From positions 1-53,180 of the forward strand of contig CALWMV010000006.1 of assembly GCA_944382125.1 (NCBI GenBank): DNA of 53,180 nt. The letters run 5' to 3'. Shown in pieces: positions 5,278 through 53,180 of the stretch. The first letter of the stretch is position 1, and each line of letters opens with the position of its first letter. Source of the stretch: an uncultured Lachnospiraceae bacterium (GTDB lineage: Bacteria > Bacillota > Clostridia > Lachnospirales > Lachnospiraceae). The translations under genes and the position numbers were made by a program. Under the pieces are notes generated by a model. The model was given only the letters and a program-made list of their open reading frames with translations, made no database searches and had not been told where the DNA came from.

Positions 5278-5344
5278 CCATGAAAATACAAAATCAACGC
5301 CCATAGGGCTTTCGTATCGATCCAATAGCGCTCCACAAAAATTT

Positions 5345-5485
5345 GTGACAGTCCGCAGCGTATTCCCCTGCGGCCCAGCAGGCCAGGCTCAGGCAGCCTG
5401 TCAAGCTTCGGCGGTCTCCCCTTTCTTCCATGGCGGATGCCTGTCCTTGCCATGGTCTACTTTTGAAGCCCGCGCCTCTATCAAT
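5345..5485 (-). promoter_or_regulatory. Lysine riboswitch (L-box) aptamer
   Basis: Read on the minus strand, the leader contains in order the conserved L-box segments: TGATAGAGGCGCGG, AAAGTAG, AAGGGGA, GCCGAAGC, GCTGGGCC and GGACTGTCA. The 5' TGATAG and the 3' CTGTCA pair to close the P1 helix. The order and spacing of AGAGG.GCG, AGTAG, GCCGAAG and ACTGTCA are the known signature of the lysine riboswitch. It begins about 10 nt after the predicted transcription start and is followed by an intrinsic terminator, so lysine binding should stop transcription of the ABC transporter operon. This is recognised by eye; a covariance search with the Rfam lysine model would settle it. Confidence 0.88.
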
Positions 5486-5502
5486 GCGATCCTGTTTTTC
5501 GT

Positions 5503-50639: not shown

Positions 50640-52694
50640 CTAATTTCTTTCAACCCAGGTTACGTTATGTTCATCCGTGGCCCAGTTTATATATATCTTT
50701 GCTGAATACGGCATCATCCTGCAGCGCAGCCAGCCGTTCTTTGAGCCTCTGTGATGATAGCCCACATTGTACTGGTTCTGATTCGTGGCCAGGACCCTGG
50801 TTATCGTCATGTCGTCCGTTATGCCAAGCTCCCATACCGGTATATCCACCTCCATGGAGCATTCGCCTGCATTGACCACTATAAGGGCAGCATGCCCCTT
50901 ATACATACGTCCGTAAGCTATCAGAGGTCCCTGCACGCAGAGCTCCTTCATGGAGCCATATCTGAATACGTCATTTTTATGTATGGATATCATGTATGTA
51001 TGGAAGTCCAGTACATGATGGTTCTCCCTTCCCCAGGGATAGGTCCTTCTGGAGTCAGGATCGGTCCAGCCGCAGACTCCTGCCTCGTCCCCGTAATATA
51101 TGGTGGGAGCTCCGGGCCAGGTCATCTGCATGGCCACGGCGGCACTAAAAAGCCCGAAGTTGAGATTTTCTTCTGCTGCCGCAGCACCGTTTTTATCAAG
51201 CCTTCCAACCGTCTTATTGGTCCTTGTAAGAAAACGGGAATGGTCATGGTTGCTGAGCTCATTCATGGCCGAAAGTATGGAACCATGCTGCATATTGCAC
51301 CATTTGTACCTCATGGTGTCAAAGAAGCTCCGTCCGTCTCCGCAGAGCTCCGGCTTTTCCCAGTCGCTGTGCTTTTCCATGCCGGTAAGGTACCAGGTGA
51401 CCGGTTCCATGAAGGCATCATAGTTCATGACTGTATCCCATTCATCCCCCTTAAGCCAGGAGGAGGGATCTCCGTAATGCTCCGCAAATATCACGGCATC
51501 GGGATTGGCCTTCTTTACTGTCTTTCTGAATTCCTTCCAGAAGCTGTGATTGAATTTCTCACTGTGTCCAAGATCGGCGGCCACATCCAGTCTCCATCCG
51601 TCCGCATTGAAGGGAGGGCTGACCCATTTGGCTCCTATGCCGAGGATATAGTCCATGAGCTCCCCGGAGCCCTCATAGTTCAGCTTCGGGAGGGTGTCAT
51701 TCTTCCACCATTTCTCATAGCTTTTATTTTCCGGCCAGGCCTCAGGCCTGTCATCCTCGAAGCGGAAATAGTCATGATATATGCTGTCCCTTGTATGGAA
51801 AGCTCCAACCTCATACCCAGGCATATCCTTATATATGCCCTCGGCATCCATCATCTTGTTGAAGGAGCCGCAGTGATTGAAGACGCCGTCCACTATGACC
51901 CTTATCCCCGCCTCATGGCATTTCTTTACAAAAGAGGCAAAGTATTCATCCGAGGCCCGGAGATTTTCCTTTAAGGCTGAGCGGGTGCTGTAGTCACCGT
52001 CCCTCACTATGACCCCATAATGGGGATCTATGTGTCCGTAATCCTGACAGTCATACTTATGATTGGAAGGGCTTACAAAGAGGGGATTGAAATATATGGC
52101 TTCGATCCCGAGTTCCTTAAGGTACTCCAGCTTCTGTTCAACGCCCTGAAGGTCCCCTCCGTAGAACCTTCCCACATCGAGGGGCTCTATGCCGGCCTCC
52201 CAGTCCTTTATCTGAACAGAGCTGCTGTCCAGATAGCCGTATTCACCGGTGCGCACATCATTATCAAAGGACCCGTTATAGAACCTGTCCACGAATATCT
52301 GATACATCACGCAGCCCTTCATCCAGTCCGGGATATGGAATCCCGGAGTTATGCTGAAATAGAAGCGGCTTCCGACGGCTCCATCAGCCCCGAGCCTGGT
52401 ATAGAGGCACTTTTCCTCTCCTTTTGTGATCTCAAAATAATACTGTATCGGGCTGTCCTCCACAGTGATGCTTATCTCAAAACAATCAAACAGCTCATCA
52501 GAGGAGACCCGCCTCATCTCAAGCTCCTCGTCGCTGTCCTCTCCCACAGTTATGAACAGCACGCTGTCTATGTCATCTTTCAGGGTCCTGAACCTTATCC
52601 TTACGGTATCCCCGCTGTCACACTCCGAGGGGATAACATAGTCATCGGTCCCATCCGTAAATAATGCTCTTTTATTTATACTGCCTTCTGCCAT
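50640..52694 (-). CDS. GH13 alpha-amylase family glycosidase (neopullulanase/cyclomaltodextrinase type)
   Basis: A 684-residue cytoplasmic enzyme acting on alpha-1,4-glucans or cyclodextrins. An N-terminal beta-sandwich domain (about 1-130) resembles the CBM34 domain of neopullulanases. The TIM barrel shows region I VDGVFNHCG, region II GWRLDVAADLG with the nucleophile Asp, region III FAEHYGDP with the acid Glu, and region IV LSNHDHSRFL with the third acidic residue. A C-terminal beta domain ends at GWLRCRMMPYSAKIYINW. No signal peptide is present. Starch-derived oligosaccharides are the likely substrate; cleavage specificity cannot be read. Confidence 0.92.
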   Translation of the reverse strand: MAEGSINKRALFTDGTDDYVIPSECDSGDTVRIRFRTLKDDIDSVLFITVGEDSDEELEMRRVSSDELFDCFEISITVEDSPIQYYFEITKGEEKCLYTRLGADGAVGSRFYFSITPGFHIPDWMKGCVMYQIFVDRFYNGSFDNDVRTGEYGYLDSSSVQIKDWEAGIEPLDVGRFYGGDLQGVEQKLEYLKELGIEAIYFNPLFVSPSNHKYDCQDYGHIDPHYGVIVRDGDYSTRSALKENLRASDEYFASFVKKCHEAGIRVIVDGVFNHCGSFNKMMDAEGIYKDMPGYEVGAFHTRDSIYHDYFRFEDDRPEAWPENKSYEKWWKNDTLPKLNYEGSGELMDYILGIGAKWVSPPFNADGWRLDVAADLGHSEKFNHSFWKEFRKTVKKANPDAVIFAEHYGDPSSWLKGDEWDTVMNYDAFMEPVTWYLTGMEKHSDWEKPELCGDGRSFFDTMRYKWCNMQHGSILSAMNELSNHDHSRFLTRTNKTVGRLDKNGAAAAEENLNFGLFSAAVAMQMTWPGAPTIYYGDEAGVCGWTDPDSRRTYPWGRENHHVLDFHTYMISIHKNDVFRYGSMKELCVQGPLIAYGRMYKGHAALIVVNAGECSMEVDIPVWELGITDDMTITRVLATNQNQYNVGYHHRGSKNGWLRCRMMPYSAKIYINWATDEHNVTWVERN

Positions 52695-52790: not shown

Positions 52791-52875
52791 ATTTTATCAG
52801 CTTTAATTATCTCGAAAACTTTTAAACAAATCGGCATTTCTAAAACTATGATCCTGGATCACCGCTATATATTAG

Positions 52876-53180
52876 TATACCATGTCCGTAAGGGAAGGAA
52901 GCGACGCCGCAGGCGGCATTTACTTCCCGGGGCTGGTATGAGCAATCTCCGATTGCGAATAGTATAACCGGCAGCTATGCTGCCGTAGGCTGCAATGCAG
53001 CCTTGTTCGCATTTGCGGACATTATACCGTGTCCGTAAGGGAAGGAAGCGGCGCCGCAGGCGGCATTTACTTCCCGGGACCGGTATGAGCAAGCTTTGCT
53101 TGTGAATAGTATAATCTCCGTCTTATGACGGAGAAAGCCGTACAGCGGCTTTAAATTTCGCTTTGCGAAATTTATTATAC
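52876..53180. repeat. Hairpin-rich repeat array, about 150-bp units, running off the right edge
   Basis: Two full units begin at TATAC at 52876 and 53023, and a third TATAC ends the window at 53176-53180, giving periods of 147 and 153 bp. Each unit has a conserved block of about 65 bp (GTCCGTAAGGGAAGGAAGCG, a GCCGC/CGGC hairpin, TTTACTTCCCGGG, GGTATGAGCAA), one variable hairpin, the spacer GAATAGTATAA, then three variable hairpins with 3-5 nt loops, for example CGGCAGC-TAT-GCTGCCG or AAATTTCGC-TTT-GCGAAATTT. Open frames through it are repetitive and not protein-like. No known element is recognised. Confidence 0.8.

Follow-up and report, generated by a model that had tools for sequence, protein, structure and literature searches.

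Hairpin arrays in Lachnospiraceae most likely belong to a superfamily of small non-autonomous elements that may settle at promoter -10 boxes

How can adjoining repeat units keep one and the same layout of hairpins when the hairpins themselves look unrelated? The question is raised by two head-to-tail hairpin units at positions 52876-53180 of a 53,180-nucleotide stretch of DNA from an uncultured Lachnospiraceae bacterium, referred to here as the window: it is contig C6 of a 1.56 Mb genome in 89 contigs, and position 53180 is the contig end. The units repeat with a period of 147 and carry five hairpins each (HP1-HP5), in the order HP1, HP2, GTATAA, HP3, HP4, HP5, TTATAC, with TTATACC being common to adjoining units. 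HP1 is a long interrupted hairpin, and the conserved block GTCCGTAAGGGAAGGAAGCG forms its 5' arm and core; the first-pass annotation of this DNA had counted four hairpins between the conserved blocks, but the block is itself a part of HP1 and the number is five per unit. The same annotation described the block as recurring every 147-153 bp: the two copies are there, starting at 52884 and 53031 with a spacing of 147, and the period range comes down to this one interval. No further exact copy of the 20-mer was found in the genome itself, and none in a wider collection of genome contigs. The features are listed below; R1 is a covariance model built from 18 units (alignment A1), and as both window units were in this alignment their R1 scores are not independent.

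50640-52694, minus strand: alpha-amylase family gene, 684 aa (Pfam PF00128, E 1.4e-49; coordinates from the ORF list), start codon 181 nt left of unit 1
52874-52879, minus strand: -10-like hexamer TATACT, reading left toward the alpha-amylase gene (from the sequence; putative promoter function)
52875-53028, plus strand: unit 1, complete HP1-HP5, TTATACC common with unit 2 (R1 164.4 bits, E 4.1e-42)
52876-52939, plus strand: HP1 of unit 1, with outer stem, inner stem and AAGC...ATTT core (sequence, fold, HP1 covariation)
52942-52956, plus strand: HP2 of unit 1, GCAATC-TCC-GATTGC (sequence, fold)
52962-52967, plus strand: GTATAA, proposed 5' strand of a helix that encloses HP3-HP5 with TTATAC at 53022-53027 (alignment prediction)
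52969-52985, plus strand: HP3 of unit 1 (sequence, fold)
52987-53003, plus strand: HP4 of unit 1 (sequence, fold)
53005-53020, plus strand: HP5 of unit 1 (sequence, fold)
53022-53180, plus strand: unit 2, complete to TTATAC, then contig end (R1 141.3 bits, E 8.7e-36)
53023-53086, plus strand: HP1 of unit 2 (sequence, fold)
53089-53103, plus strand: HP2 of unit 2 (sequence, fold)
53115-53134, plus strand: HP3 of unit 2 (sequence, fold)
53135-53151, plus strand: HP4 of unit 2 (sequence, fold)
53153-53173, plus strand: HP5 of unit 2 (sequence, fold)

All hairpins named in the first-pass annotation were found in the sequence, and the 305 nt fold better than shuffled sequences both as DNA (-82.8 kcal/mol vs -45.7 +/- 3.6, z -10.4, 0/100 shuffles as good) and as RNA (-145.4 kcal/mol vs -97.7 +/- 5.2, z -9.1, 0/100 as good). 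The helix of GTATAA and TTATAC around HP3-HP5 was predicted on the 18-unit alignment A1 and is absent on a 38-unit alignment (A5); in a joint fold of both units, GTATAA of unit 1 pairs with the end of unit 2 instead.

In the window, a dispersed repeat has locally expanded into an array. A search of the genome and its relatives, as the first-pass annotation had proposed, turned up diverged copies of the block-bearing unit in the own genome and in congeners. The own genome has 12 R1 rows at E<=0.1, and the eight at E<1e-10 are the two window units and six others. Of the 25 genomes of the genus, 5 (the own genome among them) have an R1 match at E<=0.01, which in G017 is weak and partial, and 20 have none. 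The richest, G009, has 63 R1 rows, 48 of them at E<1e-10 by our own count, with antisense echoes among the weaker rows. Full-length units for A1 (18) and A5 (38, three of them from G132 and G076) were picked by eye from the matches, truncated units being excluded; a further alignment (A2, 51 rows) holds three antisense echoes and was as a whole kept out of the pair counts.

Congeners carry the repeat at different sites. The interval between fba and pgi (gene names from Pfam) holds an array in G009 but not in G000 or G003, whereas the region upstream of pgi carries a copy in both of these genomes and is empty in G009. A third site is occupied to different extents: by an additional HP5 and then a full unit in G000, by HP3-HP5 alone in G003 and by HP5 alone in G007. 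Among the G009 copies that reach contig ends, at least two (L135 and L136) are identical over 128 nt, and several further contig ends of this genome fall inside copies. The near-identical contig-end copies fit recent amplification, and amplified copies may account for the window contig ending inside a unit. That the repeat is present patchily, at sites that differ between congeners, and in near-identical copies speaks for its movement.

The dispersed copies also bear on the dissimilar stems. The HP2-5 half of unit 1 is identical at 86 of 88 positions to a copy at C1:119931, its HP1 half at 63 of 66 to a copy on contig C51, and the HP2-5 half of unit 2 at 87 of 94 to a copy on contig C7. As the pieces of unit 1 match different copies, the seemingly unrelated stems derive from a pool that is common to the dispersed copies; from these sequence matches, hairpin replacement is best described as mosaic recombination between them. 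The variable parts are palindromes that are found again in other copies and not unique unpaired spacers, which rejects a CRISPR array, in agreement with the first-pass annotation.

Pairing is nevertheless kept. RNAalifold predicts 39 pairs on the 38 full units, 28 of which show changes on both sides with pairing kept. For 37 HP1s and 21 pairs, 89.5% of the cells pair, compared with 72.1% after shuffling, and 142 cells are changed on both sides with pairing kept, compared with 46.6 +/- 5.1 (0/500 shuffles as high); when the HP1 alignment was slid by 1-3 columns, 8-35 such cells remained. One measure gives a counter-signal: the number of further pair types, 24, is below the 29.0 of the shuffles. 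Of the earlier description of stems that are unlike and yet paired, the pairing is therefore borne out by covariation, while the stems are not unique, with near-identical halves in the copies on C1, C7 and C51.

Related hairpins are found well beyond the genus. In the family, 37 of 299 genomes (own included) have an R1 match at E<=0.001; those of other genera are mostly weak and hold an HP1 that can be aligned to the HP1 of the window. These HP1s share AAGC...ATTT, an invariant G.U next to a C x A mismatch, an internal loop and, often, tandem G.A. A model of HP1 only (R2; cut-off E<=1e-4 in order and phylum searches) matched 38 of 392 genomes (own included) from 24 of 174 genera and the families f1, f11, f17 and f22 of the order, which we take to be Lachnospirales; in the phylum sample, it matched 3 of 398 genomes, which are the own genome and two others of family f1. 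Copy numbers are lower bounds, as no more than 9 candidates were scored per genome in the family search and no more than 12 in the searches of the order and the phylum. Used on 12 chosen genomes, R1 gave up to 28 rows in one genome (G205), and arrays with periods near 98-125; within the G205 arrays, the borders between units fall close to the expected start site, and the arrays often end in a truncated unit. Sequence alignment thus shows one HP1 to be homologous across genera, and the family of interspersed hairpin repeats is real and apparently undescribed.

Most copies share a second property, a -10 box at the edge of HP1. In type ii copies, found in most of the other genera looked at, the box faces into the element; in type i copies, the kind in the window, it faces away. 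The first units of G205-like arrays begin with TATAATGTAACYTATC, followed by HP1, HP2, more hairpins and a same-strand gene downstream. We analysed 52 array-first units from 51 of 58 loci, chosen among high-scoring matches in 22 genomes outside the window's genus; 16 of these units are from G205 (13 with a box) and 9 from its two sister species. Exact TATAAT facing in was found within a 21-nt window at the HP1 edge in 32/52 units, compared with 39/2548 control windows 60-400 nt upstream; ATTATA, which is TATAAT on the other strand, was found in 11/52, compared with 42/2548. Either box is present in 39/52 units, and 13/52 have no exact TATAAT on either strand. Of the 32 inward-facing boxes, 24 are at offset -27 relative to AAGC. 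At least one exact box is present in 18 of the 22 genomes, the exceptions being G650, G051, G343 and G375.

An earlier set of 47 units had a stem criterion of 6 matched bases, which was raised to 7 for the 52-unit set, with ten loci added. There, a -10 match of at least 5/6 was present in 40/47 units on the plus strand but also in 37/47 on the minus strand; because 5-of-6 matches are nearly as common on the minus as on the plus strand, only exact boxes are informative. A -35 box with at least 4/6 matches at 16-18 nt spacing was present in 18 of those 40 plus-strand cases, compared with 183/1200 control positions (p 1.2e-5). For the 38 full type i units, the minus strand has a 6/6 match to the -10 box in 23 and a 5/6 match in 8 at the left edge, and in 28 and 8, respectively, at the right edge. 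At several loci, for example L254, L255, L256 and L260, the HP1 outer stem takes in TAAT of the -10 box (TAAT...ATTA); if transcription starts downstream, this part of the stem could pair as DNA only. To our knowledge, it is unusual for a repeat family to be seated at a nearly fixed base relative to a -10 box.

Does the box belong to the element or to the host? A 20-kb syntenic stretch was compared between three species of the genus of G205 (G205, G1048 and G1049) for two G205 arrays. At site 2, G1048 and G1049 have ...ATAGTATATAAT, then a short leader and the start codon, and in G205 the identical ...ATAGTATATAAT precedes an array of two units plus a partial one, with a leader behind it. At site 1, a leader follows GTGCACTCTATATTATAATG in G1048; in G205, four complete units and a partial unit come immediately after GTGCACTATATTATAATG, and G1049 has neither the array nor that promoter. 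At both loci a sister species thus keeps the host promoter without the array, and the array begins right after TATAAT. As the promoter is present without the array, the -10 box at these two type ii loci belongs to the host, with the array immediately behind it; a type ii element that carries its own promoter was dropped as an explanation. Judged from the sequences, the array would lie at the expected transcription start at both loci, and the difference between the species may be either a gain or a loss. As for a target-site duplication, ATTATACC is present at both ends of type i elements and none is visible in type ii; a base-exact empty counterpart was looked for at type i sites and none was found. 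Other hairpin modules, unlike HP1-HP5 and bordered by ATTATACC, lie about 100 nt left of the L137 unit, in the left flanks of L224 and L142 and in the right flank of L242, and these are perhaps further module families with the same border.

Genes next to the elements were called with a simple ORF script, errors included. A same-strand ORF follows in 34 of 36 type ii loci by a weak criterion (at least 60 aa within 400 nt). Twenty of these 34 were tested and 19 had a Pfam match, nearly all to different families (MatE twice), among them MreB, peptide deformylase, HPr kinase, citrate synthase and Asp23; ten genes beside type i copies had equally mixed functions. With these mixed functions a riboswitch-like regulon was rejected. 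At 48 type i places (including those of G132 and G076), the right neighbour is on the minus strand in 28, on the plus strand in 14 and uncalled in 6, and 13 of the 28 minus-strand neighbours are within 30 nt of the element end; the left neighbour is on the minus strand in 23, on the plus strand in 16 and uncalled in 9. From the orientation of the neighbours and the direction of the box it follows that, in gene sense, both types tend to have a -10 box at their start and to stop short of the next gene, often with a truncated end. Riboswitches were seen at two places: a lysine riboswitch at 5318-5488 of the window (minus strand, 104 bits) and a THF riboswitch at L034:286-465, close to one repeat copy.

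Type ii arrays, which lie in sense orientation behind a -10 box and ahead of a start codon (by the weak criterion, a same-strand ORF follows at 34 of 36 loci), could act as a structured 5'-leader RNA: HP1 at the 5' end of the transcript would guard the mRNA from decay or regulate it, and copies would be kept for that reason. The strong covariation and the invariant AAGC...ATTT core with its constant G.U are consistent with this, and so is the finding that RNA folding favours the plus over the minus strand in 28 of the 38 type i units and all 12 units of other genera, an advantage that we would ascribe to G.A and G.U in HP1. Type i copies are mostly antisense to the right-hand gene, though, the downstream genes are functionally unrelated, and no Rfam family matches near its gathering score, which also rejected a known RNA family.

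The types of mismatches speak against selection on RNA too, on the premise that such selection makes G.U far commoner than A.C. HP2-HP5 of the 38 type i units have 844 Watson-Crick pairs, 18 G.U, 18 A.C and 25 others, and 47 type ii units (HP1 inner, HP1 outer and HP2) have 16 G.U and 17 A.C. Pooled, these helices, which were compared first, have a G.U:A.C ratio of 34:35, compared with 35:3 in 29 distinct tRNAs of the same genome (30 tRNA loci; p 5e-6), with the reservation that mismatch cells are not independent and that neutral decay of resident copies also gives equal G.U and A.C. In HP1 of type i the ratio is 3:3 for the inner and 20:13 for the outer stem, with 3:1 for HP2; in type i-like copies of other genera it is 12:11 for the outer stem and 1:0 for HP2. 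All classes together give 55:45 (p 2e-5 vs tRNAs), and the outer stem of type i, the most uneven of the large classes, is by itself still under the tRNA ratio (p 0.002). With G.U and A.C about equal, unlike in tRNAs, the pairing looks DNA-level. The first-pass annotation had read the fixed frame with changing stems as selection on RNA or cruciform structure, or as replacement of hairpins: conserved structure and replacement both stand, the latter as mosaic recombination between dispersed copies, and selection on RNA finds no support in the mismatch types. We consider a leader RNA unlikely; G.U has no clear preference over A.C.

Pairing at the DNA level could also mean a cruciform switch, in which negative supercoiling extrudes HP1 together with the -10 box and tunes the promoter. 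Mismatches are about symmetric between the strands, and loci such as those with TAAT...ATTA do hold a part of the -10 box in the HP1 outer stem; but the stem begins only behind the hexamer in TATAATGTAACYTATC, the most frequent type ii form, and the neighbour genes have no common function. This makes a switch improbable.

Small hairpin repeats are common in bacteria. Among them, the intergenic hairpin repeats REP/BIME are read as folded single strands by a Y1 transposase (RAYT), and Correia elements are of the MITE type with terminal inverted repeats. No match to the Y1 transposase (PF01797) was found in the four clear carriers of the window's genus (G000, G003, G007 and G009; genomes 83-91% complete, which makes the absence provisional), and units of the window family are longer than REP/BIME and have multiple hairpins; a repeat derived from REP/RAYT or IS200/IS605 was rejected for lack of a PF01797 match in these carriers. 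Across the genus, the pattern of Y1 is the inverse of that of the repeat, as 15 of 25 genomes are positive and the four clear carriers are all negative, and this may be chance or genome reduction. By eye there are no terminal inverted repeats: ATTATACC has the same direction at both ends and the inverted repeats are the internal hairpins. Unlike Correia elements, the window family shows no terminal inverted repeats by eye, and its -10 box is the host's at the two loci tested.

The Correia elements (NEMIS) of Neisseria carry promoters and are found upstream of genes, one of them directly downstream of the mtrCDE promoter (PMC10969869), a position similar to that of the elements here. The BOX elements of Streptococcus pneumoniae are small modular interspersed repeats with one module in variable tandem copies, with predicted stem-loops and effects on neighbour genes, and are judged parasitic (PMC3049150); the small size, modules, tandem copies and stem-loops are alike. 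BOX is boxA-(boxB)n-boxC and lives in streptococci, whereas here each unit is a full set of hairpins, with the AAGC...ATTT HP1, in another order and often at a -10 edge; this comparison uses the description of BOX only. In the Bacillus cereus group, the portions of the sources at hand describe bcr1 as about 150 bp long with a predicted common structure, as in the units of the window family, and some of the bcr families (bcr1-bcr18) as MITE-like and often within UTRs (PMC3446304, PMC2267715). The host group is a different one and a promoter-edge seat is not described in those portions; as with BOX, the bcr families are set apart by description and not by sequence.

Size, intergenic place, hairpins and modular arrays thus resemble BOX and bcr1 (PMC3049150, PMC2267715), and the repeat could be a small family that has already been described (MITE, REP, BOX or bcr) or its decayed remains. 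The first-pass annotation had counted a match to a described element against its own reading; none was found in Rfam or among the literature matches listed. In Rfam 15, no family matches the window element at its gathering score; by E-value, there is only osmY over one copy (21.1 bits vs 46.9 needed), and 10 loci of other genera have no match. The literature matches listed contain no such family in Lachnospiraceae, from searches with subscription journals largely outside their coverage. The element has no match in 50,697 phage records; among 72,556 plasmid records there is none for the type ii query and, for the window query, only one of 43 bases at 86% inside a Burkholderia TrbI gene, which we take as chance, and a phage or plasmid origin was rejected. 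Viral contigs gave a single pattern match, in coding-like sequence and without the rest of HP1. With no Y1 match in carriers, no terminal inverted repeats by eye and HP1 matches confined to one order in our samples at E<=1e-4, a described family is very unlikely.

Least probable of all is retroposition, by which RNA from the promoter would be copied back into units that begin at the start site, with truncated units closing the arrays: internal unit borders near the expected start site and often truncated last units in G205 are in line with it, as are left-truncated type i copies, which by eye are commoner than right-truncated ones. On the other hand, it is the opposite end that is truncated in type i, and such arrays also arise by ordinary tandem duplication; no reverse transcriptase (PF00078) was found in the four clear carriers (83-91% complete, so again a provisional absence; 5 of 25 genomes of the genus are positive), which rejected a retroelement.

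The window units thus most likely belong to a superfamily of non-autonomous elements of about 100-160 bp that consist of serial hairpins. With little more than even confidence, we favour the reading that these elements are mobile DNA that settles at promoter -10 boxes and start sites. Such an element would insert in either orientation where an active promoter is melted, at the -10/start-site region or adjacent to it, and would be moved in trans by a putative enzyme that reads folded single-stranded or cruciform DNA; no transposase, integrase or donor form was found, the enzyme search covering PF01797 and PF00078 in the four clear carriers of the genus. Because the mobiliser would read folded DNA, pairing would be kept while the sequence drifts. 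Tandem duplication would afterwards build the arrays, and recombination between copies would swap hairpins and result in the fixed frame with changing stems seen in the window. Effects on the host are likely side effects: a hairpin leader at the 5' end for type ii and portable extended -10 boxes (TGGTATAAT) for type i. The kind of element, small mobile repeats, is already known; this family is set apart by its seat at the -10 box and its DNA-type pairing.

A narrower version of mobile DNA at promoters is possible, and we put it forward tentatively: the element may insert into the melted bubble of the active promoter as a folded single strand that is joined at the -10 edge in either orientation, so that each insertion would create a hairpin-led promoter, and the arms would be kept complementary by a DNA-level process and not by an RNA function.

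The comparison of mismatch types with tRNAs is a simple control that can be used on other candidate RNAs. If copies do insert at the start-site bubble of promoters, they would serve as natural probes of open complexes and supply gut bacteria with new leaders and promoters, and covariation, the usual sign of a functional RNA, would here reflect structure at the DNA level.
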